In this document: piece by piece, positions 240 through 44,470 of the stretch
Position numbering within the stretch: position 1 is the first letter of the stretch
Layout of the letters: every line of letters begins with the position of its first letter
Assembly (NCBI GenBank): GCA_009667805.1
Contig: CM019063.1
Location: 194,536,954-194,600,953, forward strand
DNA: 64,000 nucleotides
Direction of reading: 5' to 3'
DNA from: Leptobrachium leishanense
Taxonomy: Eukaryota; Chordata; Amphibia; Anura; Megophryidae
The notes under the pieces: generated by a model
The model's input: the letters and a program-made list of their open reading frames with translations, nothing else
Told to the model about the DNA's origin: nothing
The model's database searches: none
Made by a program: the position numbers and the translations under genes

Positions 240-682
240 TGGTATATACTTGGGTATAAGCCGAGTTTTTTTACTCAGATTTTGAGTCAAAAAACCGCGA
301 TTCGGCTTTTATCCGAGTCAAGGTCCTGAACACGGAGTCCGTCCGTGTTGAAGGGGATGCGGCTGCGTGCAGGCGCAGCCGGTCACGTGGTCCGGCTAAT
401 CAGGTGGTACGGAGTCTCTGTACCACCTGACTGGCCGGACCGCGTGACCTGCGCACGCACGCAGCCGCATCCCCTTCAACACGGACGGACCCCTGTATCC
501 ATGTGAGAGCTGGCTGCCGCTGGGGCAATATCCATGTGTGAGCTGGGGCAATATCCATGTGTGAGCTGGGGCAATATCCCACTTAGGCTTATACGCGAGT
601 CAATATGTTTTCACAGGTTTTTTGGGGAAAAAGTAGGGGGGTCGGCTTATACACGGGTCGGCTTATACCCGAGTATATACGG
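240..682. mobile_element. MITE with 25-bp terminal inverted repeats and internal foldback (copy 1)
   Basis: The terminal inverted repeats at 240-264 and 658-682 match closely; each reads towards the inside as GTATAAGCCGA. The interior at about 335-489 is a long palindrome with arms of roughly 75 bp and GC-rich sequence. After it come two to three 23-bp units of the motif TATCCATGTGTGAGCTGGGG (about 494-580). There is no transposase. A second copy with the same ends lies at 6666-7642. I could not define a convincing target-site duplication, so the superfamily is open (hAT-like is a guess). Confidence 0.75.
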
Positions 683-1067
683 TAATATTTATTTGTCAAG
701 TATTTTGCCTTGAAAGCTACATTGATATTTCTCTAATTTTCAAGTATGTCCTGGGTTCAAGAACATTGAAATTTTACAGTTGTTACAGAAATACAAAGTA
801 ATAAAATGCAGGATATAAAAACAAAACACATATACAGATTAAGACAGAAAATTAAATCTGTAGGAAGTAAAGTCATTATGTTACATGTTTTACAGGTGCA
901 TTCTGTATGTGTGGGTTCCATAAACACAAACCGCACAGATATGTAAAATAAGCAGTTTGTACTTTCCGACTGACAATGGTAAAACAGCCTGGTCCCTAAT
1001 GGGGTTAAAAGGTCCAAAGAAGTATTGCATAATGCAGCTCAATGAAATAAATTAATCGACATTTTAA
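683..1067. other. Unassigned, AT-rich, no gene seen
   Basis: I see no exon, repeat end or conserved coding stretch here. The short open frames have no recognisable content. Confidence 0.5.
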
Positions 1068-1170
1068 GACTATGACTCCGAGGCTCCTATTTGCATATCC
1101 TTCTTGCATGGAAAAAAATCACTCTGGTCCTAAACCCCTTCATAGTCTACAATCCCTTGCATAACCATTA
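1068..1170. repeat. DIRS terminal-repeat fragment
   Basis: The sequence beginning at about 1068 contains GACTCCGAGGCTCCTATTTG and then a run ending in CAATCCCTTGCA. The same pair of landmarks appears at the DIRS ends at 51712-52170 and in other DIRS copies in this window. It is therefore read as a detached or decayed DIRS inverted-repeat end. It probably belongs with the decayed gag fragment at 3025-3560. Confidence 0.55.
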
Positions 1171-2562
1171 CGTCTGCGTTTCAGGCCTTAAGGTTCTTTT
1201 TGCTGCTTTATCCAAAGATAAAGCCGTGGAGGATTTCCGTTTTTTCAAAACTAAGTGCCACCACACACTGTCTCCTTGCGATACATCAACACATTCCATT
1301 TTTTTTTTGTGTTTTTTTTTTTTTTTTTTTGGGGGGAGTATGCTGCGTTTTTTTTTTAAGCCCAAACACTGCTTTCTCAGGTGAAAGCTCCCTTCATCCT
1401 GCCTCCCCATAGGAGTACCTTCCCCGCCAGGCCCCCCACACAGGCTCATCTCCGCCTTTGCTATCAGTTTGGCTGTGCAATCCATGGTCTCCTATCTAAA
1501 GACCTCCATTGATCTCTGGTTTGGGTCATGGCCATAATTGTGGTACTATTGTCGGATTTTCCTACTTTGGCGGATTCCTCCGGCCTACGGACGGTGCGAC
1601 ACCTTATCCAATGTGGCTTTGCCGTGGCAGGTAAAATGTTCTTGCAGAAGACTAAACTTGTGACTAGGGGGCTGGCATCCCTGCACCACTGCTAGAGTAG
1701 GACCGAGTTCCAATCTCAAACGAGCCCCTACTCACCAGGTGACTATTCCCAAGAGGCCTAAAATTTAAGATCAGAATAAAGGTAGTTCTAATAATTCTGC
1801 TCAAGTTCCCATACGATAAATAAAAACCACTATACACCAGCACTCCGTTAAAAATCTTGAAGACCCAGGAGGGTTTAAACATTAGTTTCTCATCCAGGTG
1901 ATGGGGAAAAACCCCACATGATGATTTTTGAATGGAGTGCTGGAGTATTTAGATCTTTAACTAAAACTCAAGATGACGCAGCTCTCCTCACGACCGTTGT
2001 AGCTGACTTTGTGGTTGTTACACCCCATACTGCTGATCAGTGTTAATTGTGACAGCAAATTTCATTTTATAGTAACAATTCTTGTTTAAATGGTCATCAA
2101 TACAGCAAATGGTAAGAACTAGCGGCCTCGCCAGGAATAGTCACAGAAGGACACATTGAGTAAAGAATCACAAGAACAAAAAGGAGACTTAAATGAAGCA
2201 AGGGGTGCCAGAGAGAAAGAAAAATGCAAAAACCCCAACAACTAGTAAAGGAGTGGGGAACTGCCCTTTTGAAGGTGACATTCCTGGTGCACTCCGAGGC
2301 CCACCCGGGAGATGGGAGGCCATGGAAGAGGTCACGTGGCGTGGAGACAGACTGCAGTCACACAAGCGCACAGTGCGTCCGTGTGACTACACCTCCCTGC
2401 ATCCGTCGCAGCTTTTGACAGGCTGGACTGGGAGGGCCACACGAGGTAGCATGTTCATGAATTGTGAGCGCTACCACTGGATGTGATTTCTGCCTCCCTG
2501 ATAAAAAGCTATGATGGACGCTGATGGTCCTACGAATGTGATCCTCCGTAGGAGGATCTTGC

Positions 2563-3036
2563 TTTTGTAGCGCTGAGCGCACTAACTGCTCTCAGCGAGT
2601 TGGCCACAAGGACGTCAGTGAAAGGAACGTCCACTCTCAAGGACGTTCCTTCCCATCTGACAAATGCTTGTGTGCCTGCAGCCTTAGTCTTTCACTTGGA
2701 GTAGTGCAAACATATAGAATGTGCTTGACCAGCGTGTGGGACAGTCGTACACAACAATAAGACCACACTGATCCAATAACTTCTGTGTTGCAACAGATGA
2801 TTTTCAAAAGCGTTTTACCACCGACCTTGTTCTTATTATCTCACAAGAAAAGGTTTCTTCTATGTAAACCCTCAAAATCTAAATGAAAAGATTTTGTATA
2901 TGGGATCACAAATGCTGCAGGCACACAAGCATTTGTCAGATGGGAAGGAACGTCCTTGAGAGTGGACGTTCCTTTCACTGACGTCCTTGTGGCCACCTCG
3001 CTGAGAGCAGTTAGTGCGCTCAGCCAAGTGACTGAG
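2563..3036. repeat. Large inverted repeat, about 120-bp arms
   Basis: The arm at about 2566-2685 (including GGAACGTCCACTCTCAAGGA) is repeated in reverse complement at about 2914-3035, with a spacer of roughly 230 bp. The arms are nearly identical, so the fold is either young or maintained. The right arm runs directly into a DIRS gag-like coding remnant, so the palindrome may have arisen inside a DIRS copy. Confidence 0.8.
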
Positions 3037-3560
3037 GAAGATGAGGTGGTGCTTCATGCACCGGAGGAGGACCCCAAGGGACCTGTTTATTGTGAGGTTA
3101 TTTATGACCCCCGGGACATCCTTTATTTTGTCCTGCGGGATCTTGCCCAACCCCGATCTTCAGCATGACCCTGAAGCCCCATGTAGAGAAGTGGGATGAT
3201 GTCCATATTAGTAGATCCTTGGATAGTGCAACATGCATGATGATGATGCATTATGAATTTCCTCGCCGCATGACGAAGGGCAAGATATGCCTCACGCCTG
3301 TGCTACAAAAATGTCACCAAACATTGCTGTTCAGCTAGGTATGGATTTGATCTCGCCAAGACAAACTTCTAGATCTGTTGAGACCACTTCTACAATTATT
3401 TGATGTTTCGGAAGAGGCTAAGTTGAATTCTACCAAACTTGCTGCCCTTATGGTGCGTAACTAATGTTTAACACATGTTGGACTCTTTTGGCAACGCCAC
3501 CTCAGATATCCAATCAACGGCCATTGCTAGTATATTTAGACAGTTCTGCCCATAACCTGC
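3025..3560 (+). pseudogene. Decayed DIRS gag-like fragment
   Basis: The frame reads DEVVLHAPEEDPKGPVYC and, further on, YDPRDILYFVLRDLAQPRSS. The gag of DIRS-C at 58601-58966 has the same pattern (DEVVLHA, then DPQGDPLFYPEDLSHPRSS). Further downstream, after stops and shifts, the sequence resembles the gag segment LLDxxxPLxxLFDxxExAK. There are several stop codons, so it is a dead remnant. The flanking inverted repeat at 2563-3036 ends within it. Confidence 0.65.
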
Positions 3561-6500
3561 TGTTTGGGAAAGCGTTTTTTAAAGTTATGGGTGCATTTGC
3601 CTACACCTTTTTTACACGCTAGATAAGGTTTCTTCTTCCCCGATGGTCTTCAGAGGCTGTGTTTTAGACAGAGACAGAGGTTTGGGGGTGATTGTAACAT
3701 TAGAGGACTAGAGTGGTAATTTGGGAGTTGCCAAAACTGCTCTCCTGAGAATCACTTGCAGAATCGGGGGGGGGGAATTCCTGTAGTTCGATGCCTGAAA
3801 ACATGTATTTTCAGGGCTGAGCAAACAGTTGTTTTTTTTTGTCCCTATGCCCACTGGGTAAGGAATGCCATGGACAGGCTTTTTGCCTCTGATCGGCTCC
3901 TGCAGCTTCATGATGTATAATCAGTGCTGCCTCCGTCCATCAGTTGCAGGATGTGAAGCTGCTCCTCCCTGAGCTCTGGCTGAGTTGTTTCACAGCTGCC
4001 TACTTGGTGGTTCCTGTGGCTCCTCACTGGGCTGCAGATCTCCTAATTCTGGCCAGCCTTTCGCTTGTGAGGGTAATGTGCCCCCCCCGACCGCATTAAG
4101 CTCTCCCTGCCACGTTCTGTCTGCTGTGTCCCAGTACTGCATCATCACGGAACGCCTGTTTATCAGCCTGAGCAAAGACACAGGACTCCTGTGATAAGGG
4201 GGTGTTCAGACATGTCATAACAGCATCAGAACATGTGTTAAGAGCAGCAGTGTTAACCTTTCACACTGTCCTGAGAGCTCATGGCAGGCAGGAGGCCCTA
4301 AACCCGCAGAGCAGAAAAACCTCCTCCATAGCTGTGCAGAACTGCCTTTACACAAATCTAAGGAATAAGGGTGGTAGGCTTGCAATAAGAAAGACTATGA
4401 AATATAGTAAACCAAAAATCTATGAATGTAGATTGTAGGGGATCCGTCTCAATATAGCGGAAAACTCGCAGTCGCTTCAGAAATTGCCAGCTTTAATTTC
4501 AGACAGCAATCCAGTCACAAAAATAGAAACTAAAAGGTTGCAGGCATCCAGACAAAATCAGTTCATAGAAACAAAAGTCCGCTCAACTGAGCCTTACTTG
4601 GGTATTTAGAGACAGTCCTCCAAGCTGAGATGGTTTCCTCCAAGGAAACCGTGAAAGTTCATCCATGGAATCCTGTCCCACTGACAGGCTTTTTCTCCCA
4701 ACACAGGAGTTGCTGCATTCCACACACAGTCTCTCCATGCACTGAGACACACACACTGCTAGGTGCAGCTGCACATTAAATTAATCCCTGTCCCACCCAG
4801 AGCAAATTAAACTCCTGGTAACACCAGCTCCAGAATCTGTTTTACCCATACAAGTTAAAGAGCTATTGGTCTTTATACTGGCAGTACCTTAGATGATGAA
4901 TCTAAACATTCGTGGAGGAATGTTTCTGCCATCTATCACTTTTCCTGCCACCCTGGCAGGTTCTACTGGCACTCTGTTACAACATTTTATTATTCCTATA
5001 CATGTACTGCCGGTAAAGTTTTTTTTTTTACCAGTGGTGCACACTAGAATAGTGTAAAAAACTCCAAACCATAACAACTCCAAGCCTTCCACACTAATCC
5101 AACAAATGAGCAAAGCGTTACACGCCTAAAGCAAAATATCAATTTTGCATGTTTTTTTTAAAATGTAGACTCCATGTCAAACGTCAGCAGGTACATATAC
5201 ACAATAAATCATGATCTTAAACGGTACTGAAAACAAGGCCATATGAGCAAAACAGTCTTCACTATGAAGAAAATACACAGTACTTTGGATTATTGTATTC
5301 TCAAAGTGTATATTTAAAGATGCAGGAAAATCATTGAATAAAAAAAGGCTTGCCGCACTCAAATAGCATTCTCTGTTCATCAAGGGTTGCTTTATTACAT
5401 CTTTATATATAGTTACTGTTAAGAGAACACGATTGTTAAGGATCCTAGTGCCCCTTTCCGTTGTATAAGACGGATCTTGTATCCAGATACAGTATAGACA
5501 CATAAACTGTATGAAGAGATGTTGCTCATTCAAAATCCAAATGGAGAATGCTTTATTTTTGCTTTAGACACACAAAGGTAAAACACAGTTGAGACACAAC
5601 CCACTACCTTTAAAGAATACATTGCAGATAACATCAAGAGTCTCCAGTCAGAGAAAAATAGAAAGGACCTTCAACACAATGGAATGTTTACACATGCGTC
5701 TTTCTCTAAACAGCCTGCTAGACCTAGGGGAACAAAGGAGTTGTCTTACAGAGAGGGAAACAAAGGAGGTTAGAGTGCAAGCTCTTGAGCAAGGGTCCTC
5801 TTCTACTGTTTAGTGAGTGCAAAATATAACAACTTAGAACGAACATACAGATACACACTTTGACAACAGCATAGCACATCACACAACCCTCTACACTATA
5901 TACAGTGACATTAAATGCAAATAAACTTTTAAAGTGGCGGTTTCATCACAACGATTACTAGCTTTTCCGCATTTTTATTGGCATACTGCGGACCGCATTG
6001 CTCACATTAGGGTTTAGTGTGTGTATACACAAATATGTACCTGATTTATATATTTTCTGTAATTTATCAGATTTGATGGAAAAAGGTTGATTGGCATTCG
6101 TCACGTGTGCAGCTCTTTTCTTGCCTATATATGTGCTGCAAAGCTTTTTGTGTCACTCTGCTTTTCTACCACCCATTGAAGGCTGGAGAGGCAGTACGGT
6201 ACAACTGCAGCAATGTACTGAACAACCTTTTTGTTTTGTTTCACCTCTTCCATGCTCTTCTTTTCGGCATTGGCCACATTGCCAGTATAGAATACCCTAT
6301 CATGTCTTGCAGTGTCACGTGTAGGCTGTACAATCTATGCAGCAGGTGTGGTTGTGAGCCCAATATGCAGTGCACTGAGGAGATCAGACCAGTTATAGCA
6401 CACAAAAAGGGTTATTTACAAGAGACTTGAACTAAACAACAGAGGAGACTGGACAGATGGGGAATAGATTGGGGAAGGAGAGGAGATGCAGAAAAAGGAG

Positions 6501-6665
6501 GTTGAGGCAATAGAGGAATGGCTGCGAATAGTGGGAAGGGAGAACTGAATATGGGAGTAGCTAGGAAACCGAAATAAGGAATAACAAGATGAGAATTCAA
6601 GAGGGGAGAGAGGAGCAATAGACACAAGGAGAAACTATCAACACAATAAACATTATATATACATA
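3561..6665. other. Unassigned intergenic or intronic DNA
   Basis: About 3.1 kb with no recognised exon or element. It contains short poly-G and poly-C tracts (around 3768 and 4081). A stretch near 5770-5810 (AAGCTCTTGAGCAAGGGTCC) has the look of a dispersed repeat end. No further assignment is supported. Confidence 0.4.
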
Positions 6666-7642
6666 CCGTATATACTCGGGTATAAGCCGACCCCCCCCCC
6701 CTACTTTTTCCCAAAAAACTTGTGAAAACTTATTGACTCACGTATAAGCCTAAGTGGGAAATGCAGCAGCCACTGGTAAATTTCAAAAATAAAAATAGAT
6801 ACCAAAATCCTGCTAGGGTGGGTTAAAAGAATGAGAGGGGCCTTGGGGGGATCCATTTTGTCCTGCAACAAAATATAATCCTCAGTGCAACTGTTACTCA
6901 CCATCAACTCGACACTCTGAGAGTGCTCTCTGTCGTCCTGCCTTTTGCCTGTCCTCCGATATGAGATTTTTTGCTGTTAATTCGTCTGTATTTGGAAAAT
7001 TGCAATTCTGGGCCAATTCTGAGTTTAGTGAATTACCCCTTTAATGTTTACATACACGTCCAAGACCCACTGGGGAACTGACAGCCCAATGGGAGACTAG
7101 TCTGCTTTTTGTACTTGGGATTAAAGGTGAATGTGCATGTCAGTACGTTCGTGGATCCCCCTCGGCTCTGCATGGGTCATCTTTAAGAGGCAGTGACACG
7201 CACCCCTTTTAACCCTGCACTGACTGTCGCACGGTAACAACGCTGGAGGACTAGCATGTCCTCCTGGCCTGCGACTGCATCTAGCTTGCGGTGGCGGACT
7301 GTGCAAGGGCTGCAGACACCTTGCCCCAGCCATCCCTGCATGTCACCCAAGCACGCACTGCCCGCCGCCGATTCCTTAGTCCTCCATTACGAAGGTCCAG
7401 CCTGCTGCTGTAGCATGCCTCCCAGCTACATATCTCGAGGCTGGGAACGGCACGCTGCACTGGCGCCGCCCCCTCCAGCATGATGACCTCACCGTGCGTC
7501 ACACACAGCCGCGGCCGTTTCCAGCCTCGTGATAAGTAGCTGGGAGGCCAGTCCGGCCCTGTCCTTGACTCGCGTATAAGCCAAATCGGGTTTTTTTTAC
7601 TCAAAATCTGAGTCAACTCGGCTTATACGCGAGTATATACGG
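6666..7642. mobile_element. MITE with 25-bp terminal inverted repeats (copy 2, opposite orientation)
   Basis: Its ends at 6666-6690 and 7618-7642 are the same inverted repeats as in the element at 240-682. Subterminal sequences are shared too (poly-C/CTACTTTTTCCC at one end, CTCAAAATCTGAGTCAA at the other), but in the opposite orientation. The interior differs: a GC-rich, partly palindromic 0.5-kb section around 7120-7560. No open frame resembles a transposase. A TG run follows the right end. Confidence 0.75.
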
Positions 7643-7725
7643 TGTGTGTGTGTGATATATATATTAATATTACACCTACACTGTATCAGGCAATTGAAAT
7701 AGTCGTAATCTGGAGCAGGGGTCTT

Positions 7726-7760
7726 AGGCTAGGGTCAGACAAATGCATTCTGTGCCTCCG
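7726..7760 (+). mobile_element. Harbinger-like MITE end, isolated
   Basis: The sequence TTAGGCTAGGGTCAGACAAA resembles the terminal repeat (GGCTGGGGTCAGACGAGCG) of the complete copies at 30207-30609 and 35818-36266. Only this end is visible. It may be the missing left part of the truncated copy ending at 10059, split by the element at 8412-9638, but this is not proven. Confidence 0.4.
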
Positions 7761-8411
7761 TGCACAACAGACGTTCTTCCTGTTTGTTTTTGTGACTGAC
7801 ATTTTTTTTTGACTGATGTAGATGGGAAATAAAATTAATATGAAAAAACATTGTTATGGAAAGTTTGGTGTTTGCGCATAAAGTCCTGGTGCACTAAAAA
7901 AGGTACACTGCAGTATTAAAGTGCGCCCAGTACAAACAAATCCGTCACTATAAAAATACACGCTATATCTAGCTCTTTCTGTATAAGAACGAAGTACTTC
8001 TCTGTGTCCCAGGAGGAATCCGACAAACACTCTGCTTCAAGCTGGAAATCCTCTGCCCAAGTGCGCTGTGGCTCCTGGATTGTATAATTTATTAGACAAT
8101 CGCACACGCCCAATAGCCCCCTGGCTGTACAACAGAAAAGCCAGGTTGCCCAGTAATTAAATTTACATATCAAAAGGACAGGGGCGTAGACCAGAATGAC
8201 CGACCGGCCTCCTGGAGATGACTCATCCCATAGCCATCTCCATGATCCCCGTCAGCCATGTTTGTCCCCATCCCCCGTCACTTGTCACTCATCAATATGG
8301 ACCCCACTCAGATACTGCTCAATCTACGTGTTCCTACGGGTTATGGACATATCTGCGGGGACAAATAAAGTTATTATCTCAACACGGTACCAGTGTTGAG
8401 ACAAGGCTTAA

Positions 8412-16409: not shown

Positions 16410-16919
16410 AAATGTTGATCCTGTAAAATTGATATATATGGAGAGTGCCACTTATTTCCTGATATATTTTTTTTTTCCAGGGTTCAGCAAAATATCTTTA
16501 TTTTCTAGAACACCTTTTTGTATTTTTAGACTTTTTTAGAAAAGAGGTGTTTTTATTTTGACTTTCTTATTTAAAAAAATTAAGAACTTTTTTCTATTTG
16601 GACAGGTTTTTACTGATTTATACTCCTATTAGGAAAATAAATATATAAAATCTATTTTTTTCTTGAATTCACTGATGCCAATTCTGCTGTTTTTCAACGT
16701 CTGATAACTGCTGCTGTGACCATTTCCTAAATAGTGAATTTGGCCTAGTTTCGGCAAATTAAGCCAAAATGCAAAGCACCAAAATTGCACACAATTTCGG
16801 TGCTTTGGGTTTATACACAGCTGGGTGTTTCTCTTCTCAGGTGCCCACACACCTTCCTGTCTCGTTCATCTCTCTCTCCAACCACATTCCAGTCATATAA
16901 ACGGGAAGATGTACAGTAG

Positions 16920-16982
16920 TCCCCCTCATATTCGCGGTTCGATAATCGCGGACTCAGTCATTCGCGGATTTTCCCCTGTATG
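16920..16982 (+). mobile_element. Isolated DNA-transposon-like end
   Basis: CAGTAGTCCCCCTCATATTC, followed by GCGGTTCGATAATCGCGGAC, has the look of a terminal inverted repeat of a cut-and-paste element. Only this end is visible. It runs straight into the minisatellite at 16983, which suggests that the array grew inside this element. Confidence 0.4.
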
Positions 16983-17150
16983 CTGGGGGCAGTGTGTCCA
17001 TGTGTGCTGGGGGCAGTGTGTCCATGTGTGCTGGGGGCAGTGTGTCCATGTGTGCTGGGGGCAGTGTGTCCATGTGTGCTGGGGGCAGTGTGTCCATGTG
17101 TGCTGGGGGCAGTGTGTCCATGTGTGCTGTGGGCAGTGTGTCCATGTGAG
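16983..17150 (+). repeat. 24-bp minisatellite, about seven units
   Basis: The unit is GTGTGCTGGGGGCAGTGTGT plus CCAT, repeated about seven times. The period of 24 is a multiple of three, so it reads as an eight-residue repeat (CWGQCVHV) in one frame and stays open in several frames on both strands. It is not a gene. The unit is related to the CCATGTGAGCTGGGG motif of the adjoining array and of other elements here. Confidence 0.9.
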
Positions 17151-17490
17151 CTGGGGGAAAATCAATATATCCATGTGAGCTGGGGGAAAATCAATATATC
17201 CATGTGAGCTGGGGGAAAATCAATATATCCATGTGAGCTGGGGGAAAATCAATATATCCATGTGAGCTGGGGGAAAATCAATATATCCATGTGAGCTGGG
17301 GGAAAATCAATATATCCATGTGAGCTGGGGGAAAAATCAATATATCCATGTGAGCTGGGGGAAAAATCCATATATCCATGTGAGCTGGGGCAAATCAATA
17401 TATCCATGTGAGCTGGGGGAAAAATCAATATATCCATGTGAGCTGGGGCAAATCAATATATCCATGTGAGCTGGGGCAATATGTCCATCA
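17140..17490 (+). repeat. Minisatellite of about 29-bp units
   Basis: About eleven units of TATCCATGTGAGCTGGGGGA plus AAATCAATA, drifting at the right end to shorter units with GGGGCAAATCAATA. The right edge, GGGGCAATATGTCCATCATA followed by (TA)n, is close to the unit found in the MITE at 240-682. It lies about 250 bp upstream of morc2 exon B. Confidence 0.9.
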
Positions 17491-17742
17491 TATATATATA
17501 TATATCAGTGAGTTTTATTGCTGTGGATTCTGTGATACGCTCATACACACCGCACACTGCTGTGAGTTTTATTACTGTGGCACGATGTTATGTCCTTTAA
17601 GTTTTTCTTTTCTGACCTGTATGTGCGTTATAATTGATCTATTTTTTTTTTTTAAATTGATTAATCGAACAGAAAAATTTTAATCCGTACCAGCCCTAGA
17701 AAACTTATGTTTTTTTTTTTTTCCCTCCGCCCCACTTTCAAG

Positions 17743-20867: not shown

Positions 20868-21039
20868 TCTATACTATAAAAGGATAAGCTAAAAACTGTC
20901 CGTCGCCAAAAGCCGTCTGCGCATGCGCGACGGACATTTGAAAGCGGCCGTTAGAACACACAGGTAGCTGCGCGTGCCGGCCGCGTGAAAAAAAAAAAAA
21001 ACACGGCACGAGCCGCGCGCAGCTACCCGTGTGTTTACA

Positions 21040-22320
21040 CGGCCAGATGCCCCGATCCTCCAGCGGTGACCGTCCTCCGGCTGCCGGCGGGCCTCCAGGC
21101 TCAGGCGAGCCCCCGGCTCGGTTTGGGCCTACAGCCCAGCCGAGCCGGGGACTCGCCTAAGCCTAGAGGCCCGCCGAGCAGCCAGCGGCAGCCGGAGAAG
21201 GTCACCGCTGGAGGATCGGGCCGAAGTTCCCAAAAAATACACCCCAAAATCGGCCCTGAGCTCCAGCGGAGACCTCCTCCAGCTGCCGCTGGCTGCTCGG
21301 CGGGCCTCTAGGCTTAGGCGAGCCCCCGGCTCGGTTTGGGCCTACAGGCCAGCCGAGCCGGGGATTCGCCTAAGCGTAGAGGCCGGCCGAGCAGCCTGCT
21401 CGGCCGGAGGAGGTCACCGCTGGAGCTCAGGGCCGATGTTGCCGAACACATACTCACCGACATCGGCCCTTAGCTCCTCCAGCGATGGCGGTCCGCTTGC
21501 AGCATCCTCTCTCCGTTGCTCGCCGGAATGACGTCACGAAAGCCTTTGACCCCGGGGGTCAAAGGCTTTCGTGACGTCATCCTGGCGAGCAACGGAGAGA
21601 GGATGCTGCAAGTGGGACCGCCATCGCTGGAGGAGCTAAGGGCCGATGTCGGTGAGTATGTGGAACCGGTGGAGGACTCGAGGCCGATGTAGGTGAGTAT
21701 GTGCTCTACACACACACACACACCCTGCTTGCTCGGCCGGTATCCAAGCTTAGGCGAGCCCCCGGCTTGGCTTGGGCCTAGAGGCCCTGCCGAGCCGGGG
21801 ACTCGCCTGAGCATGGAGGCCGGTCGAGTTGCATGCTCGGGCGTCCTCCAGGCTCAGGCGAGTCCCCGCTCGGCTGGGCCTCTAGGCCCACGCCAAGCTG
21901 GGGGCTCGCCTAAGCTTGGTCGGCATCCAGGCTCAGGCGAGCCCCCGGCTTGGCTTGGCCTAGAGGCCCAGCCGAGCCAGGGACTCACCTGAGCCTGGAG
22001 GACGACCGAGCATGCAACTCGACGGCCTCCATGCTCAGGCGAGTCCCCGGCTCTGCTGGCCTCTAGGCCCAAGCCGGGGGCTCGCCTAAGCTTGGATACC
22101 GGCCGAGTAAGCAGGGTGGGTGTGGAGAGCACATACTCACCTACATTAGCCCTGAGCTCAGCGGTGACTGTCCTCCGGCTGTCGCAGGCTGCTCGGCCGG
22201 CCTCCAGGCTCAGGCGAGCCCCCGCTTGGCTTGGGCCTACAGGCCCAGCCGAGCCGGGGGCTCGCCTAAGCCTGGAGGCCGGCCGAGCAGCCTACGACAG
22301 CCACCGCTGAGGCTCCGGCC
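21040..22320. repeat. Nested GC-rich inverted repeats inside the Helitron
   Basis: Multiple copies of GGCTCAGGCGAGCCCCCGGC and its reverse complement alternate around GCCTACAGGCCCAGCCGAGC-type centres. At least three foldback blocks result: about 21050-21215, 21245-21440 and 21725-22110, plus a related block at 22165-22315. Open frames here are by-products of the GC-rich repeat. No protein domain is seen. Confidence 0.75.
21458..21656. repeat. Palindrome with about 95-bp arms (copy 1)
   Basis: A near-perfect palindrome centred near 21555 (CTTTGACCCCGGGGGTCAAAG). Both arms contain TGACGTCA and GCGATGGCGGTCC-type sequence. A diverged copy is at 22355-22552. Confidence 0.88.
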
Positions 22321-22354
22321 CAATGTAGGGGGATGTTGCCTACACATACTCACC

Positions 22355-22552
22355 TACATCGGCCCTTAGCTCCTCCAGCGATGGCGGTCCCGCTTCCAGC
22401 GTCCTCTCTCGCTCCGTTGTTCGCCGGAATGACGTCACGAAAGCCTTTGACCCCGGGGGTCAAAGGCTTTCGTGACGTCATCCCGGCGACCAACGGAGCG
22501 AGAGAGGACGCTGGAAGCGGGACGCGGGACCGCCATCGCTGGAGGACCGATG
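22355..22552. repeat. Palindrome with about 95-bp arms (copy 2)
   Basis: A second copy of the palindrome at 21458-21656, with the same centre CTTTGACCCCGGGGGTCAAAG (near 22455). It has small differences such as GCTTCCAGCGTCC in place of GCTTGCAGCATCC. Its right arm ends within a few bases of the 19-bp satellite. Confidence 0.88.
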
Positions 22553-22554
22553 TA

Positions 22555-23795
22555 GGTGAGTATATCCACGAGCGGGGGGGCCATATCCACGGGGGGGGGG
22601 CGATATCCACGTGCTGGGGCGATATCCACGAGCTGGGGCAGTATCCACGAGCTGGGGCAGTATCCACGAGCTGGGGGCAGTATCCACGAGCTGGGGGCAG
22701 TATCCACGAGCTGGGGCAGTATCCACGTGCTGGGGCAGTATCCATCCACGTGCTGGGGCAGTATCCACGTGCTGGGGCAGTATCAATCCACGTGCTGGGG
22801 CAATATCCACGTGCTGGGCAGTATCCACGTGCTGGGGCAGTATCCACGAGCTGGGGCAATATCCACGTGCTGGGGCAGTATCCACGTGCTGGGGCAGTAT
22901 CCACGTGCTGGGGCAGTATCCACGTGCTGGGCAGTATCCACGTGCTGGGGCAATATCCAGGAGCTGGGGCAATATCCACGTGCTGGGGCAGTATCCATCC
23001 ACGTGCTGGGGCAATATCCACGTGCTAGGGCAGTATCCACGAGCTGGGGCAGTATCCACGAGCTGGGGCAATATCCACGTGCTGGGCAGTATCCACGAGC
23101 TGGGGCAGTATCCACGTGCTGCGGCAATATCCACGTGCTGGGGCAATATCCACGTGCTGGGGCAGTATCCACGTGCTGGGGCAATATCCACGTGCTGGGG
23201 CAATATCCACGTGCTGGGGCAATATCCACGTGCTGGGTCAATATCCACGTGCTGGGGCAGTATCCACGTGCTGGGGCAATATCCAGGAGCTGGGGCAGTA
23301 TCCACGAGCTGGGGCAGTATCCACGTGCTGCGGCAATATCCACGTGCTGCGGCAATATCCACGTGCTGGGGCAATATCCACGTGCTGGGGCAGTATCCAC
23401 GTGCTGGGGCAATATCCACGTGCTGGGGCAATATCCACGTGCTGGGTCAATATCCACGTGCTGGGGCAGTATCCACGTGCTGGGGCAGTATCCACGAGCT
23501 GGGGCAGTATCCACGTGCTGGGGCAGTATCCATCCACGTGCTGGGGCAATATCCACGTGCTAGGGCAGTATCCACGAGCTGGGGCAGTATCCACGAGCTG
23601 GGGCAATATCCACGTGCTAGGGCAGTATCCACGAGCTGGGGCAGTATCCACGTGCTGCGGCAATATCCACGTGCTGGGGCAGTATCCACGTTCTGGGGCA
23701 GTATCCACGTGCTGGGGCAGTATCCACGTGCTGGGGCAGTATCCACGAGCTGGGGCAGTATCCACGAGCTGGGGCAGTATACATGAGCAGGGGCA
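22555..23795 (+). repeat. 19-bp satellite array, about 65 units
   Basis: The unit is GGGGCAGTATCCACGTGCT, with common variants CAA for CAG and GAGCT for GTGCT. A 23-bp variant containing TATCCATCCACG occurs near 22740, 22992 and 23530. The units have no stop codon in any frame, and 19 is not divisible by three. All six frames are therefore open for long distances, as a 19-residue repeat such as AGAVSTCWGSIHVLGQYPR. These frames (up to 391 codons) are not genes. Unit-specific variants recur 209 bp apart (11 units), which shows a higher-order duplication. Confidence 0.95.
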
Positions 23796-24044
23796 GTATA
23801 TCCACAATAGACTGCCCTCTGGGCAGGCTTTACAACTAGTAGAATATATAATCACAAAGTTTGGATGATAAACTGTGGAAAAATATGCTGTAAATGATTG
23901 AAATCCGAGATGGAGGTGTAACACAAATTCAAATGAATAGAAATGGGCTTTAGAATGATTATTTTACCTTGATGGACATCTTTTGAAAAATATTGTACAT
24001 ATATTTTTTTCATTTAACAAGTTTGCCTGATCTTCCTCTTTCAG

Positions 24045-35640: not shown

Positions 35641-35674
35641 CTAACACGACTCTAAATGCTTCCGCATCAGCTTC

Positions 35675-35749: not shown

Positions 35750-35817
35750 GATCCGTGTGACAATAGTGGATGAGGAAATACCTAACCGTCCACCAACAGA
35801 TCCTGACTGTTCGGTAA

Positions 35818-36266: not shown

Positions 36267-36269
36267 TAA

Positions 36270-37700
36270 GAGCCGCAGGACATCCACCCGGAGTTCCAGA
36301 TACAGGGGAAACCATGGTTGGTTGGGCCAGAATGGAGTCACTAGAACTGCCTCCTGCATCCAGACCTGGCGCAGCATCCGCGCCACCAATTGAAATGGAG
36401 GAAACGCATACTGCCGACGCCTTCTCCAATCCTGTAAGAAGGCATCAGTGGCCAGAGCCATGGGCCCGGCCACCAACTGTTAAAGAGGGGTACTCGGGCG
36501 TTCAGAAGCGACGCAAAGAGGTCGATCTGAAAGGGACCCCAAAGACCCGCCATGACGGCAAAGATTGAGTGCAAACTACAATCCCCAATCTGCGAGGAGA
36601 TTCGAAACACCCGGAATTAACTGAGCGTGAACCATAACTTTCCTCTGAAAGCACCAATACCAGAGGCGCGTCGACACATCCGTCAGGAGCAAGCAACGAG
36701 GTCCCCCCGTGATGTAAAGCACGGCTAGAAAGTTGTTCATCCGGATGAGAACGGACACCTGACCCGCCGGTTTGAGAAAGCTCTGCAGGGCGAAAAGGCC
36801 CGCTAACAACTCCAGACCATTGATATGGACGTGAGCCTCTTGTGCCGACCAAGGTCCCCCATCATTAAGGTCCCAAACCTGGCTCCCCAACCTGACAGAC
36901 AGACATGCATCGTAGTCTATCATCACTGAGGGAGGTGATGTTGTGATAGACTTCCCGTTGCAACACCGGAGGTTCTTGATCCAACAAAGGAGGTCCTCTC
37001 GCGCTCTCATCGAGAGTAGAACACGATCCGAGTAATCTCGACCTTCCCGTAGGAAATGGGCAGTCAGGCGTTGGAGGGCCCGATAATGGAGAGGTGCCAG
37101 ATGCAGCGCCAGTTTCAGGGCCCCCAAAAGCCCTATTATGCGTGAAAGATCTTGCAAGGTCTGGGAGACATTGTTGAGAAGAGCACGCTCCTCCTTTGGG
37201 ATAGCTTTGTATTTGTGTTCTGGGAGCATCAGGGACATCAATAAAGGTTGACCTGTGAATCCAAGGAACTCCAGTGACCGAACTGGGTGAAGAATCGACT
37301 TTTCAAAGTTCACTAGAAAACCCAACTCTTGCAAGAGAGTTATCGTCTGCTGGATCTGAACTTGCAGCAGTCGAGCGGACTCCGCCATCAGAAGGATGTC
37401 GTCCAGATAAATGAGGCGGATCACCTGCGATCTGAGCCGACACCCCACTGGCTTCAGGAGCTTGGTGAAGCTCCAAGGAGCTGAAGAGTCCGAAAGGCAG
37501 GCAACGGAATCGCCACGTGACGGCGTTCCAGTGGAAACAGGAATTTCCTGGATTCCTCCACCATAGGCACCGTCAGGTAGGCGTCCTTAAAGTCTATCTT
37601 CGCCAACCAGTCTCCTTGTCGAAGTATATCTTTTAACAAATGCAAACCTTCCATTTGGAAGTGATTGTAGTTAACTGACATTCAACTTTTAGATTGAGGA
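36270..37700 (-). pseudogene. DIRS-A reverse transcriptase/RNase H
   Basis: Copies DIRS RNA to DNA. In minus-strand order: FQMEGLHLLKDILRQGDWLA, then KIDFKDAYLTVPM with the first catalytic Asp (37681-37520); a shift; IRLIYLDDILLMAESARLL with YLDD (37448 on); LGFLVNFEKS; RIIGLLGALKLALHLAPLHY. The RNase H core is degraded: DYDACLSVRLGSQV for the usual D-A-S, IRMNNFLAVLYI for LRMDNF, and LLADWGL for VADWNS. TDAFLQDWRRRRQYAFPPF follows at 36470-36400. Several catalytic RNase H residues are altered, and there are at least three shifts. Confidence 0.88.
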
Positions 37701-38376
37701 CGGCACGACTCCCGCCCTTCTTGAACTAGAAATAGATTGCCAAAGATTTATACGTCCTTCAGCGAGGATCGTTATATGGCGCCTTTCCAAAGGAGGTCTG
37801 CAATCTCTTCGTCCACCAGCGCTCCCTCCTCCGTGGCGAAAATCAACATTGGGGGAAAGGAGCGCTGAACGGGTGTTGAGATGAAATCTATGACAAATCC
37901 TTGTATTGTGTGTGTAACAACCATGCATCTGACGTGACTTCCTGCCATCGTGGCACACATGCAGACAAACGTCCCCCCACTTGAACATTCAAATGGTGAA
38001 TCAAAGCATGAAATACCTGGTGACCTGTATTGGAAATTGCGTCCTCCTCGATAACCTCTGAAACCTCCTGGCACGCCAGGGACGGGAGTGGGAGGGGAAG
38101 AAGTTAGAGACTCTATTCTTGGATTGGGAGGCGTCCTAAACCACGGAGCCTGAGAATTGGCGGGAGAAACCTGTCCTTGCACGGCTGGCAGCGCGACCCC
38201 CTGACCCTGCCGGCCCGAGCAAAAACCCCAGCGGTGAAAACCTTCTTTATTGAGGTACTGACCTTTTCCATGGTCGTAAAAGCTTCAGTATATTCAGACA
38301 TATCACGCAGGAAACAAAGCCCGAATAGCATCCCTTGGACTTTAGCCCCAGCTCGTAGGTCCGCTACTGCCGCCAA
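37690..38376 (-). pseudogene. DIRS-A gag, 3' part, and RT N-terminus
   Basis: The minus strand reads AAVADLRAGAKVQGMLFGLC, followed by FLRDMSEYTEAFTTMEKVST and FARAGRVRG. After that comes the region leading into RT, with VVPSSI-type sequence and shifts. The gag frame joins directly to the codons at 44750 (LLKMDPQL) when DIRS-B is taken out. Confidence 0.75.
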
Positions 38377-38940
38377 TTTTAATACACGACTCGAAGGCTC
38401 CTATCTAACATCCCAACGTGGGAGTATCCCTTCCCTCAGACCCTGGCCACCCCCTCATCCCAGTCCATAGGGGGGCGTGTCTGGAGCATCATTCCCTCTT
38501 CTTTTGCTGCTCCTCACAGAGATAAGTACTCCGTTTTATGCTCTGCAAAAATTACGTGTTTCTTTGTGTTGGAGTGAATGTTTTTTGGTTATTTCATCCC
38601 TGGGCCCGATCTACCCGGCTTCTAACCGCGGGGATTGGTGCCTGGGGCCACCTGCGAAACCGGCAATAACCGCCGTTCCGCAGATACGAATTGTCATACT
38701 AGCATTGTACATTGTACTCCCCTTGCTCGTTATTTAGGTGACCACGCTCCTGTCCCGCTTGCCCTACCACACCGGCTCCGTCCGACCGCTTGAAAACCCT
38801 TGCGCATTCCAGCCGCCTTGTTTCGCTCTCTACACACGAGGCGGGGGGGTGGAGTCTGTGGATCTCCTCACGTCTGCACTTCAGTTCAAAGCCCGGCGCC
38901 ATTTTAAACACGCGCGAGTACCTTCCAGACACGCTGCAGG

Positions 38941-40277
38941 ATGTCCCTCTCTAAACCTGACTCGGAATCTCGTTCGACCTCTCCCAGGTCTGAATCCGCC
39001 GCGAGTTCCCGACGCTCGGCCTCAGGAGACCCCCAGGCACAAGGTTCCCCCCAATGCCACCATTCAAAATCAAAGGCACGCTTTGCTGCAATGGAAGCCG
39101 CGCTCCGCTCCACCATAGCGGACACCGTGGCCTCGGCTGTATCTTTCCCTGGAGGCTGGTCCCTCCCATAGTCAGTCCTTTAGATCCCCATTCACGTCTA
39201 TGGGACCCCCACCACTTCGCCCAATTTGCGAATCTGTGGCGTCCTCACGATCTGCGACACCATATGAACCCGATTCTTTGGCCGTTGTACGGCACGGTGA
39301 TTTTGCTCCTAGAGGGGCTGGCAACCCCACAACACTGCCCTTTGACGATGGCGAGTACGTCTCGTGTAAGAGAGCCTCTGACCGCGAGGCGACAAAAGTG
39401 GTCGCTGATAAAAAGCTTGAGCCCACGGGCCGCAGCTTACTCCCAGTGTACAGCAACTCGGAGAGTGAGGAACCCGAGCATGGGGAGGATGTCGAAGCCA
39501 TTGAGCTTCACGCACCGGATGATTCCGACCTGATGGTCTAGGAGGAGCCATACGTCCCCAAACGCAATTCAACTGCGGTCATTATAGGGGACCCACAGGG
39601 CCACCCCATGTTTGACCCCGTACAGGTCACTAACCCCCAATCCACGGCATGGTCACCACAACCGCACGTCGAGAAATGGGTGGACGCACATCTGCGTCTC
39701 CCCATGGATCGAGAAACCCGGGCCAATCTGAGAGCGGAATGCCCACGTCCAACCACCGCGGGGAAAACCTGCATTACCCCGGAGGTGGACCTGGACTTTC
39801 AAAAGTAGATTACCACCAAAGGATGGTCCCCGAAACGTGGCATTGACCACACTTTTAGAGCGTGCGAGGACAAAGTGCTGGACGTGGCGGCCCCGCTAGT
39901 CCACCTCTTTGTGGCAGAGGAAGCTCGCCTACAGGGCACTAACATGGATTCAGGCATGGTGGTGGAATGGGTCCAACGCTCCTTATGCCTCCTGGGAGCT
40001 GCCAACACTGCACTGGCCGCTGAACGCAGGAAATCGATCCTGTTGAAAATGGATCCCCAACTGACCACTATGGCCAGCAAAGATATGGGCAGTGAAGCCT
40101 AAGGCCTTTTATTTGGGGAAGCATTTATTAAAAACCTTGGAAAATACGCAGGGACCTTCACCAATCTGGAAAAAGTCGACCTCCTTCAAAAAGGTCTCTG
40201 GTCCCAAGCGTGTTTTTGGGAGAGCCAGCAACTATCGGTCGTGCTGCCGGCAGAGCGGGTCCTTCCCGCAACCCTAA
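38941..40277 (+). pseudogene. DIRS-B gag-like ORF1
   Basis: Structural protein of the DIRS particle. It starts at ATG 38941 (MSLSKPDSESRSTSPRSESA, a Ser/Arg-rich N-terminus). It then shifts frame near 39180 and reads through two UAG stops (after PDDSDLMV at 39539 and DLDFQK at 39806). Conserved blocks include VEKWVDAHLRLPMDRET, LRAECPRPTT, GWSPKRGIDHTFRACEDKVL and ERRKSILLKMDPQL. A further shift near 40100 leads to the C-terminal GRASNYRSCC segment. The same blocks occur in DIRS-A and DIRS-C. Confidence 0.85.
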
Positions 40278-40429
40278 AGGCCCCGCCCAACCCTTATCTG
40301 GAGCCCAAGACTCTGGTCCCGTTGGACCATCATACCAGTCCCGAGCAGGCTGCTGGCGCAGCCGCGGCTACCGCGGTAGAGGATCCAACGATCCACGTCG
40401 TCCATCAGGTAAGCCTGCCAATCTTGATT

Positions 40430-42300
40430 CCGCATCACTCGCTCCCGGTAGGGGGTCGTTTGGGACTCTTCCCCGAGGCGTGGGCCCGTATCTCCACAGA
40501 TCCCTGGGTGCTCCAAGCCATAAAGGGGTACATGATCGACTTTGCGGCGCTCCCCCCTCCTGCGTGATCATCCACCTCCCCAGTTGCGCTTCTCAACCGA
40601 CCAGACGCTTCTGGTGCGATCAGAGGTCCGGACTAGGCTAAGGAAGGCAGCGATAGAGCGGGTGTCGGGGTCTGCCCCAAAATTCATCAGCAACCTCTTC
40701 CTATTTGCCAAAAAGGGCAGGGGACTTCGACCAGTCATCAATCTAAGGGATATCAACGAATGGGTCACGTACCAACACTTACAGATGGAAGGGGTACACA
40801 CCATGAGACTTGTTGCGTACGGGGGACTGGCTCGCGTAGCTGGATCTCAGGGATGCGTATCTGTCCGTTCCTATGGCGGTGGAATGTCGCGACTACCTGT
40901 GCTTTCCATGGAACGGAGACCTTTGGCTCTTCAAATGCCTCCCATTCGGCCTCTCGTCTGCTCCGTGGTGCTTCACGAAGCTGATGAAACCGGTTATGGC
41001 CCATCTTCGGTCCCGGGGGATACGACTGGTCATATACCTAGACGATATACTGATTATGTCGACTTCTCGATCCCGAACGTCCCTCCACGTGTCGTGGATG
41101 GTGTCCCTCCTACAGGATCTGGGGTTCCTCGTCAACGAGGAAAAGTTGCTGCTGATTCCTACCCAGTGTCTGGAATTCTTGGGTTTCACTCTGGACTCAC
41201 GATCCATGACACTCAGTATTCCAGACTCCAAGGTGAAGTCCATCCAAAAGGAGGTCTGCTCCTTGTTGAGAGTCAAGTCAACGACTCTTCGATCTCTAGC
41301 TCGAGTGGTTGGTCTTCTAGCAGCCACACGTCTGGCAGTTCTCCTGGCTCCTCTCCACTATCGGGCCCTCCAACGATTGACGGCCCGTTCTCTCCGGAAA
41401 GGCATGGCTTACCGGGACCTGGTTGCCCTCTCGGACGACGCGATTCTAGATCTGCGTTGGTGGTCAACCGGTTGGTCGGAGTGGAACTCCCGTCCGGTGA
41501 TAGACCCGATGCACATGATGGTGATCGAATCGGACGCCAGTCACCTGGGCTGGGGGGCCCGGTGCGGTCCACTGGCGACGGGGGGTCGATGGTCAACGGA
41601 GGAAACGGAACTGTACATAAACTTGCTAGAACTCCGGGCGGCTTTGTTTGCCCTTCGTTGCTTCATACGCGGCACCGTACACCGATCTATCCTACTACGC
41701 CTAGACAACTTCCCGGTGGTACGGTACATCAACGCCTTGGGAGGTCCCAGATCGCTGGCTCTAATGACTATGGCTTCACGCCTGTGGGAATTTTGCCTTC
41801 CCCGAGGCCTTTACGTAAGGGCACAATTCCTACCAGGGTTACACAACACTGTGGCGGATTGGAACTCCCGCAACTTCAAAGAGTCGGATTGGAAACACCT
41901 CCCATGGGTCTTCGGCGCTCTCTACGACTTATGGGGTCCGCTACTGGTGGACCTGTTCGCGTCTCAGCTGAACTGTCAGTTTCAGAGGTTTTTCAGCTGG
42001 AGACCGGACCCGGAGGCGACAGACGCACTCCTACAGAATTGGTTGACGGCTCGCCTCTACGCCTTTCCACCGTTCCGACTGCTCGGAGCCGTACTGGGCA
42101 AACTTTGCTCGTCCCCATCGGAATTAGTTCTCATCGCGCCATGGTGGCCGATGCAACCATGGTTCCCGACGATGCTAGAATTGTCCATGGACATAGTGTG
42201 GTTTCTGCCTTGGTCTCGGGACCTACTCCTAGATCCGTGCGGTCTCCCTCACCCGCTGCTCCTAGAGGGTCGACTGCCTCTGATGGCCTGGCTTGTTTCA
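40430..42300 (+). pseudogene. DIRS-B reverse transcriptase/RNase H
   Basis: The N-terminal block VGGRLGLFPEAWARISTDPW (about 40447) is in one frame and SNLFLFAKKGRGLRPVINLR (about 40690) in a second. The rest, from about 40825, is in a third, after a UAG at about 40837. Motifs: LDLRDAYLSVP (catalytic Asp), CLPFGLSSAPWCFTKLMKPV, IRLVIYLDDILIM (YLDD at 41035), DLGFLVNEEK and LEFLGFTLDS. The RNase H part has VIESDASHLGWGARC, ELRAALFALRCF, LRLDNFPVVRYIN and VADWNSR, so its D-E-D-D core looks intact. From 40873 the frame is open for 527 codons, so only the 5' part is broken. Confidence 0.9.
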
Positions 42301-43229
42301 GGTTCGCCTGGCAACGCTATGAGCTTTTGGACGCAGCTGCAGAACTGCTCCGACTCGCCTGGGCTCTGGGCACCAGAAACGCATACCGTTCTGCCTGGGA
42401 CAGCTGGCACCGCTGGTGTGTGGGACCGGGTCAGGATTCCATTTCAGCTCCTTTAGGATCCGTATGGGATTTCCTGGCCTCACAATTCAACGGGGGTTTG
42501 GCCTTTCGGACAGTCAATGTATACCGATCCGCTAGCTCGGCTGGTCATGTCGGGTTTGACGGCGTTCCGGCTGGACGTCATCCCTTGGTTTGCCGTCTGT
42601 TGAAAGGGGTCAGACTTTCCCGTCCTCCCTTGCCCAGATACACCTCCACCTGGGATGTTTCGGTGGTCTTGCTGTTTCTGCGTTCTTGGCCGGATAACGA
42701 GGGTCTATCATTACGACAGCTATCCGCCAAACTGCTGGTGTTGTTTGATTTCATGCAAACGAGTCAGTGACGTAAGAGCACTGGATTTCCAGATCCGCTC
42801 CTTCGTTCCAGAGGGGGTTCGTTTTGATGTGTCCCATAGGACCAAGACGTCCCTCTCTTTTAGGTTTTCTACCCAGCGTTCCCGTCGGAACCATTGTGTC
42901 CAGTCCGGTGTTAAAGGACTTATGAGTCTCGTACGGGGTCGCTAAGGATGGTCATGGCTTTGCCATTGTTCGTGTCCTTTCGCTCCCCTCACGCTCCGGT
43001 GTCCACCTCCACTTTAGCACGGTGGGCTCGTTGGTTGTTGTCTTTGGCGGGGGTCGACACCTCCCATTTCAGGGCGCATTCCATCAGGGGCGCGGCTGCG
43101 TCCAAGGCCTACGCGATGGGTTGTTGTTTGGAAGATATCATGAAGGCGGCGGATTGGACGAGAGAATCGACTTTCCGCACCTTCTATTTTCCTCAGGCTC
43201 CGCATTGGTCGGAGGATTTGTTGCGTTGA
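42260..43229 (+). pseudogene. DIRS-B tyrosine recombinase
   Basis: Overlaps the end of RT/RNase H in another frame, as usual in DIRS. It contains LGTRNAYRSAWDSWHRWCVG, FRTVNVYRSASSAGH and PPLPRYTSTWDVSVVL. A frame change near 42760 leads to LISCKRVSDVRALDFQIRSF, with the first catalytic Arg. A second change near 42945 leads to PVSTSTLARWARWLLSLAGV, then FRAHSIRGAAASKA (H-x-x-R) and STFRTFYFPQAPHW (Tyr). The Arg, His, Arg and Tyr are all visible, but two frameshifts break the gene. Confidence 0.88.
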
Positions 43230-43261
43230 ACAAGCAAATAGGAGCCTCCGTCGTGTCTTAA

Positions 43262-43335
43262 AATTACCAAATTTTCCTATCCGGTGACGGAAAGTTTGGA
43301 TTTTAATAAAGACTCGGAAGCGAGTATTTCCCGCC
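43262..43335. repeat. DIRS-B inner inverted repeat, left arm
   Basis: AATTACCAAATTTTCCTATC through GACTCGGAAGCGAGTATTT is repeated inverted at 44675-44750, the extreme 3' end of the element. The arms are almost identical, with one visible difference (GGAAGCGAG versus GGAGGCGAG). Confidence 0.85.
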
Positions 43336-43563
43336 TCCCCACCCGTTGTGGGTTGTGTGGACGCTTCGTTCTCCATATACCGGTTGTTATTTTGATGTGG
43401 AATGGGGCGCCCGCGTACTGTCGTGCTACCGCGCTTACTGAATGCTTGCATGTGTATGTCAGGATTTGGGGACGATTAGTCTTCCCGTCGTGTTGACCTG
43501 GCTTTCGTGTTTGTTTCCTTTCAGGACCTTGAACCGCTGGTCAGAAGTTTTCTCAGTTTCCTA

Positions 43564-44470
43564 TAGGGATGCACCGATACCACTTTAAGACCGAGTACGA
43601 GTACCGATACTTTTTAAAAGTACTCACCGATACCGAGTACCGATACTTTTCTTTAATGTCATGTGACGCTTTCCAATAAGAACAGACCATATAAAAAGGC
43701 CCCAGCTCACGTGTGTGTGTGTGTGTATATATATATATATTCATACTGCCCCAGCTTATGGATATGCACCCCCAGCTCATGGATATGCCCCCCAGCTCAC
43801 ACATTGATATGCTCCAGCTCATGGTTATGCCCCCCAGCTCACACATTGATATGCCCCCCATCTCATGGATATGCCCCCAGCTCACGGGTATGCCCCCCAG
43901 CTCGGACCCCCCCCCGACGATACTTACCTTCCTGAGCGCCGCCGGGAATGTCTCCGCGCGTGTGCTCGTTGGAAGGACCCCAGCCGTGACCACGTGGGAC
44001 CATGTGATCACGGCTGGGGTCCTTCCAAGGAGCGCGCGCGGGGAAACTTTCCCGGCGTCGCCCAGGAAGGTAAGTATCATCGCGTAGAGCAGCTGCAGGG
44101 CCTATCTGCATTCAGACAGGCCCTGCAGCTGCTCAGTGTGTTTATACTTACCTTCCTGGGCGCTGCCGGAAAGCTTCTGTGCGCGCGCTCCTTGGAAGGA
44201 CCCCAGCCATGATCACATGGTCGCGGCTGGGGTCCTTCCAACGAGCGCCGCGCGGAGACATTCCGGCGGCGCCCAGGAAGGTAAGTATCGCAGGGGCGGC
44301 TGTCTGAATGCCGATAGAGCATTTGGACAGCCGCCGCAGCCCCTCGGATGCCGGCTCAATGCCGGCTTCCGGTATCGGAAAAAATATCGGGGGGTACTGC
44401 AGGAGTACTAAGTACTCCTGCAGTACCCAGTATCGGCCCCGATACCGATACTAGTATCGGTGCAACCCTA
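43564..44470. mobile_element. hAT-type MITE with 8-bp TSD, inside DIRS-B
   Basis: Ends are TAGGGATGCACCGATACC and, inverted, TAGGGTTGCACCGATAC. The perfect duplication GTTTCCTA lies at 43556-43563 and 44471-44478. The 907-bp interior holds (TG)n(TA)n, then tandem units of the CCAGCTCATGGATATGCCCC motif (43741-43905), then GC-rich inverted repeats with GACCCCAGCCGTGATCACA-type arms. It has no coding. It sits between the two inner inverted repeats of DIRS-B. Confidence 0.92.
43741..43905 (-). repeat. Minisatellite units inside the hAT MITE
   Basis: Read on the minus strand, the units are TATCCATGAGCTGGGG and TATCAATGTGTGAGCTGGGG. The second differs at one base from the unit in the MITE at 240-682. 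About seven irregular units of 17-25 bp. Confidence 0.85.

Follow-up and report, generated by a model that had tools for sequence, protein, structure and literature searches.

One G-rich minisatellite in hAT, mariner-type and Helitron-like elements of the frog Leptobrachium leishanense, often beside a one-sided palindrome and a donor-like start

Frog genomes contain non-autonomous DNA elements that carry tandem repeats, such as Xmix/Xstir in Xenopus laevis and miDNA4 in X. tropicalis (reviewed in PMC9659126; another review is PMC6947457), and miDNA4 is summarised in the first review as a Tc1-mariner miniature inverted-repeat transposable element (MITE) with an internal satellite (PMC9659126). 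We consider here a stretch of 64,000 nucleotides from Leptobrachium leishanense (assembly GCA_009667805.1, contig CM019063.1, positions 194,536,954 to 194,600,953 of the forward strand), hereafter the window, in which a G-rich minisatellite forms four arrays. Its hosts are likewise frog non-autonomous DNA elements carrying tandem repeats, but whereas the accessible text of the review (PMC9659126) ties Xmix/Xstir and miDNA4 to one element each, a single repeat is found here in hAT, mariner-type and Helitron-like hosts, along with a palindrome and donor-like start. The Cg_HINE Helentrons of oyster are similar in that their arrays are interchangeable central modules between flanks, for which recombination has been suggested; they stay within one superfamily, however, have longer monomers, and are described without mention of a donor-like junction in the accessible part of that paper (PMC7492417). 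Tetris of Drosophila virilis, with its TIR-220 repeats, is a foldback element whose internal tandem repeats seed longer arrays, although these repeats, of about 220 bp, lie inside the inverted repeats of one element, whose ends are common with DAIBAM, as far as the available text describes them (PMC4079207). In yeast, (GAGCT)nGGGGT repeats of S-mu gave more rearrangement only when the G-runs were on the strand that is not transcribed, according to the accessible text (PMC4256205). The arrays described here resemble S-mu in being G-rich and tandem, in containing GAGCT and GGGG, in following a donor-like site and in having their G-runs on the outward sense strand, but they lie in mobile elements, and one half of their 19-30-bp units is A/T-rich; the comparison is one of how they may work. 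A literature search over titles and abstract openings, with subscription papers mostly beyond reach, found none on one repeat across several superfamilies.

The original prediction placed a common core at four sites, and Tandem Repeats Finder recovered an array at each. Array 1 (494..583, forward strand; program span 519-579) has 23-bp units, array 2 (16977..17488, forward) has 24-bp units at 16977-17157 followed by 29-bp units at 17141-17476, array 3 (22564..23805, forward; program span 22604-23799, 62 copies) has 19-bp units, and array 4 (43741..43905, reverse; program span 43749-43903, 20/42 bp) has mixed units of about 20-24 bp. Parsing gave 3, 18, 63 and 8 units, respectively. Window scans met the core only at these four places: when 3 mismatches are allowed, the 20-base core has 5 matches, against 0 in 100 shuffles, and fuzzy scans of the whole window with four unit forms and up to 3 errors found no unit beyond the four arrays. 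An independent origin had been called unlikely, and this is borne out by the common non-donor half of the unit and by the similarity of the consensus units, which for each of 15 pairs was matched by no more than 1/2000 composition shuffles.

Array 1 lies in a non-autonomous element with mariner-type ends, E1 (240..682, forward strand), whose terminal inverted repeats cover about 240-323 and 584-682. The ends can be aligned with a relative at 6664-7645 that has no array, and the left flank is TT rather than TA; all eight family members fetched from the genome (L104-L111) have TA outside each end and matching terminal inverted repeats, as expected of the Tc1/mariner type. A GC-rich palindrome (334..493; arms 334-378 and 449-493, 93% complementary) adjoins array 1 on its left. 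Helitrons are recognised by a 5' TC, a 3' hairpin followed by CTRR, and insertion between A and T. E3 (20868..23839, forward), the host of array 3, has all of these, starting with TC after A at 20868 and ending with CTAG before T at 23839, with the hairpin CTGCCC-TCT-GGGCAG (23812..23826, forward) before the CTAG end. It contains a series of GC-rich palindromes (21085..22563), several of whose outer ends bear an outward-pointing GGTGAGTAT; one such splice-donor-like copy (22555..22563, forward) stands at the boundary between palindrome and array. E4 (43564..44470), the host of array 4, is a hAT element with the short terminal inverted repeats TAGGGATGCACCGATA and TAGGGTTGCACCGATA and a perfect 8-bp target duplication GTTTCCTA. 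It has two palindromes within 43915..44290 (43915-44082 and about 44135-44290) and a splice-donor-like GGTAAGTAT (43920..43928, reverse) between array 4 and the palindrome. The claim that the hosts have different ends and target duplications thus stands for the mariner-type, Helitron-like and hAT elements; at 16983-17490 there is no host family.

At the latter site, array 2 is fused to a single end (16914..16976, forward) that we take to be Tigger-like. A search for a right end matching it found none, and the junction has 3 genome matches when 3 mismatches are allowed, against 1 for the control, the only exact one being that of the window itself. Since the junction is essentially unique and no right end was found, a Tigger/pogo host was rejected, and we regard array 2 as a fragment rather than a host family. 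Its right flank (17500-17580) is similar to the flanks of two sampled stretches, L068 and L088. An exon-like stretch at 17740-17900 matches MORC2 (PDB 5of9, E 1.3e-21), and array 2 therefore probably lies within a MORC2-like gene, in one of its introns. MORC2 has a link to transposon silencing.

Beyond the window, the repeat is abundant. An 18-base form, TATCCAYGTGNNCTGGGG, has 67,349 exact matches (32,935 + 34,414) in the 3.54 Gb genome, with 1 for the reversed control. Hosts were sampled in 38 stretches (L066-L103), namely every cluster among the first 100 matches listed, at 0.29-7.5 Mb of the first contig (a 7.2-Mb run); one of these, L075, has a lone core and no array and was kept in the counts, where a chance match stood in. 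A looser end finder accepted 90/438 mispaired controls and was dropped for a strict rule, which asks that the first five bases of each end be hAT-like, that no fewer than 8/14 end bases match and that the 8-bp duplication be exact. The strict rule accepts 13/38 stretches as hAT-like hosts and 0/736 mispaired flanks, and L071 and L089 fall short of it by one duplication mismatch. Eight end types are represented: H1 (L067, L080; CAGTGGCGTC), H2 (L066, L072; CAGGG.TCRAG), H3, the family of E4 (L091, L096; TAGGGATGCACC), H4 (L082, L102; CAGTGGCGGAAC), H5 (L068, at 8/14 end bases only; CAGGGTCGGTGCTA), H6 (L069, L076; CAGGGGTGGGCA), H7 (L097; CAGGGCTGGCCC) and H9 (L098; CAGTGGCGTGCAGA). Because the first eight bases of H1, H4 and H9 are identical, a cautious count from these ends would be six hAT groups. 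Other stretches were placed in host types by similarity, L103 being put in H9 by eye from its right flank, and several were left unassigned.

The other two superfamilies are also multi-copy hosts. The junction of mariner-type sequence and array has 436 genome matches when 2 mismatches are allowed, against none for the control. That of Helitron-like sequence and array has 4,610 with 3 mismatches allowed, again against none for the control, a count of junctions and not of multi-unit arrays, and 3,562 in a shorter exact form; Helitron-like 3' ends of the E3 kind number 11,200 at up to 2 mismatches. One minisatellite thus occupies multi-copy families of three superfamilies, which contradicts the case that all matches fall inside one element family. 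Two core patterns had 0 matches in viral contigs and one core pattern had 0 in genome contigs; a degenerate 18-mer had 22 and 2 single-copy matches elsewhere, about the chance expectation by our estimate, and the 11 matches of a mariner-end 15-mer in viral contigs were taken as chance. Protein searches with array translations gave no match.

The surroundings of the arrays follow a side rule. Structure was compared in 42 arrays (38 sampled and the four of the window), oriented with the G-runs 5' to 3', and a palindrome was called strong at a score of at least 40 and no more than 600 bp from the array. Strong palindromes stand upstream of 24/42 arrays, downstream of 3/42 and on both sides of none, and 18 of the 24 upstream ones are at most 60 bp away. 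Among the hosts of these 24 are H1, H2, H3, H5, H6, H9, the mariner-type element, Helitrons and L074. Arrays also have a donor-like start, typically GAG followed by GTGAGCTGGGG, the latter doubling as the first unit core. AGGTRAG is found within 100 nt upstream of the array in 20/40 cases in sense and 1/40 in antisense (shuffles mean 0.76, maximum 3) and after the array in 0/42, and the 14-mer GAGGTGAGCTGGGG has 11,844 genome matches versus 23 for the control. When scored against the vertebrate 5' splice-site consensus, 21/42 array starts reach at least 8, where random windows of the same loci give a mean of 2.6 and at most 5. At the outer palindrome ends of E3 and E4, GGTRAGTAT has 10 matches versus 0.72 expected. 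Outward antisense donor-like words were seen upstream in 8/20 cases (E3 and E4 among them, and five in H1), an uncontrolled count on which two-sided donors are not claimed. The original prediction of a lone mobile seed therefore stands as to a minisatellite in several superfamilies, and falls short in that more recurs, often with a one-sided palindrome and donor-like start.

Composition separates the two parts further. G/C skew is positive in 40/40 arrays (mean 0.27) and 0.00 in the palindromes; AGCT occurs 946 times in the arrays versus 116 expected (about eightfold); and the observed/expected ratio of CpG is 0.94 in palindromes, 0.63 in far flanks and 0.07 in arrays. If transcription is assumed to run outward from the palindrome, the G-runs lie on the non-template strand, as in switch regions. 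The word CTCGCGAG, presumably the core of TCTCGCGAGA, a promoter motif to which BANP binds, occurs in the palindromes of L076, L077 and L098 (3/24 versus 0.5 in shuffles, maximum 2).

Palindromes do not always track the host family. Palindrome arms are similar at z>5 in 19/20 same-host pairs and in 46/170 cross-host pairs, one of which (L098-L103) we afterwards assigned to a single family. A tree was built for 14 of the 20 donor-bearing palindromes, the hard-to-align L074, L083, L087, L091, E3 and E4 being left out. In it a 99/98 branch separates the H6 members L076 and L089, and a topology that keeps them together is rejected (approximately unbiased test, p 0.00047); the two have similar ends and adjoining tens of bases (69 bases at 86%). 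H3 likewise has two palindrome kinds, one in L071 and E4 and another in L091, L096 and L101, with similar left ends and with right flanks that are 86-90% similar, except for the non-matching right flank of L101.

Arrays also change length in place, as the mariner-type arrays vary from 216 to 664 bp at one identical junction (in 7 of the 8 fetched copies, those with a recognised first unit); core counts in these copies miss some units, e.g. in L106. Within array 3, blocks of 4 units are repeated 5 times versus 0.40 in shuffled order (reached by 1/2000), the counts for blocks of 3 and 5 units are reached by 28/2000 and 11/2000, and no block of 6 was seen. In unit composition, the self-likeness of H3 arrays (0.204) is below their likeness to the mariner type (0.244). 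A polarity of unit length, with short units by the palindrome, was rejected (15 arrays increase and 13 decrease, out of 31).

Our preferred reading, held tentatively and with somewhat less than even confidence, is that the four arrays are one G-rich minisatellite in hAT, mariner-type and Helitron-like hosts, grown and exchanged by repair copying at transcription-linked breaks. Immunoglobulin switch loci have a promoter-exon-donor layout, and the cassette of promoter, exon, donor and repeat may work like such a switch region. The palindrome would act as a promoter in both directions and have a short first exon, the putative splice donor at the array start would be put to use, and G-runs on the non-template strand would lead to R-loops, as in switch regions. 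Transcription leaving the palindrome would cause breaks in the array; their mending by synthesis on another copy would change the repeat number and occasionally bring a palindrome-array module into an element with different ends, and transposition of the host would then multiply each new combination. Transcription-coupled repair is favoured because palindromes on one side, a donor-like start and a G/C skew are all to be expected of palindrome-outward transcription with the G-runs on the non-template strand. HUSH acts on long intronless transcripts, according to the accessible text of PMC7618375, and it is an idea only that splice donors might shield element transcripts from HUSH silencing.

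Several observations weigh against this reading. There is no strong palindrome at either side of 15/42 arrays, and doubt attaches to two of the 24 upstream ones, that of L090 being 535 bp off and that of L099 being not GC-rich and within another repeat. AGGTRAG is absent before 20/40 arrays, and many array units have no GT donor. Several promoter words are missing or unenriched in the 24 palindromes (NRF1 0, YY1 0, SP1 2 versus 5.4 in shuffles), and the excess of the CACGTG E-box, in 10/24 palindromes versus 1.4 in shuffles, may merely reflect palindromic symmetry, which shuffles lose. No match to the mariner-type palindrome was seen among the other 23, and the palindromes of E1, E3 and E4 show no match to each other, so no single palindrome accompanies all arrays. 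The pair L076 and L089, for which the palindrome tree was tested, had been picked after a first tree. By unit composition, moreover, the nearest neighbour is of the same host for 24/36 arrays (shuffled mean 4.7, largest 14). Because units largely track the host in this way, transfer between families is rare relative to turnover within them; of the earlier claim of transfer followed by expansion, the expansion is matched by in-place length change, and the transfer has to be qualified to this extent.

Replication offers an explanation of its own, which we consider possible though not probable: a long palindrome would fold into a hairpin or cruciform at which forks stall or break, and restarted copying beside it would make and swap repeats. 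The closeness of those 18 upstream palindromes to their arrays, together with the very strong predicted folding of the palindromes in the window, is what this account leads one to expect, but a symmetric hairpin explains neither a one-sided array nor its donor-like start. It is quite unlikely, in our judgement, that ends rather than interiors were exchanged, a palindrome-array element having gained other terminal repeats by nearby insertion and aberrant transposition, with the interior fixed. A common interior with differing ends would follow directly; H3 and H6, however, keep their ends and adjoining tens of bases while the palindrome differs, and this capture alone leaves three superfamilies unexplained.

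The unit may instead have arisen by the Helitron 3' end and been exported to other hosts. The Helitron junction is the commonest of those counted, both at up to 3 mismatches and in its shorter exact form, and Helitrons are described as capture-prone in the accessible text of PMC7492417. However, such 3' ends number about 11,200 at up to 2 mismatches, the one in L099 has no array before its end, and the composition of the E3 array is among the least like that of other arrays, so that a Helitron birthplace seems improbable. Very much less probable still is convergence, in which each element separately expanded a similar intron start, donors and G-runs being alike. A donor-like start is indeed present in many hosts, but the common part extends through CAATATATCCATG, beyond any donor consensus, and the similarity across arrays is far above that of shuffles; the common non-donor half of the unit leaves convergence close to refuted.

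Two sources for the unit were tried within the window. A seed from mariner subterminal sequence is weak, as the anchored test was reached by 1-9/400 controls and the free alignment by at least 18/1000 shuffles and at least 84 random windows. The palindrome centres of E4 (44000-44019 and 44201-44220) hold CCATGTGATCAYGGCTGGGG, which is the array core with five inserted bases, and the gapped pattern CCATGTGA-N5-GCTGGGG at these places has an expectation of 0.01 matches per shuffled window; a seed from there is suggestive versus arrays 1 and 2, but fails for the array of E4 itself, and both candidates were set aside.

Other repeats and elements lie near these arrays. A minisatellite with a 30-bp unit, CTGGGGGCAAGTGTCTGGCTGTAATTAGTT, stands to the right of the core array in L069 and L089, one with a 28-bp unit, CAGTGCTGTGTATATTATTCTGGGGGCT, follows it in L066, L072 and L073, and one with a 55-bp unit, TGTGATACGCTCATACACACC..., follows it in L068, L074, L083 and L088; chains of adjoining arrays may be common in the genome. 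In L090 a Helitron-like 5' end begins about 475 bp past the array, and the Helitron-like 3' end without an array in L099 lies about 480 bp ahead of the core array. Within the window, the region of 45700-46800 and 47221-48156 holds a transposase frame (Pfam DDE_Tnp_1_7, E 7e-67), which we take to be piggyBac-type. On its left it has GC palindromes together with two further tandem arrays, one of units near CTGGCACTGTACCCC and one of a 36-bp unit, again a palindrome with a minisatellite, of a different repeat. A reverse transcriptase frame at 40840-42456 (Pfam RVT_1, E 3e-18) is presumably DIRS-like. A scan of the window for Rfam families and tRNAs found none.

Repeats riding on a single transposon family are already known. 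If the preferred reading is true, unrelated transposons would trade interior parts, with one repeat in hundreds to thousands of copies across three kinds of family. A broader proposition, which we regard as unlikely, is that the transposon superfamilies of one genome share swappable interior modules (a two-way promoter, first exon, donor and switch-like repeat), that ends and interior would be separate replicators, and that breaks from transcription would drive both expansion and swaps. On the preferred reading, the L. leishanense genome would also hold thousands of natural replicates for asking if the polarity of transcription across G-rich repeats is what makes minisatellites grow and exchange ectopically.

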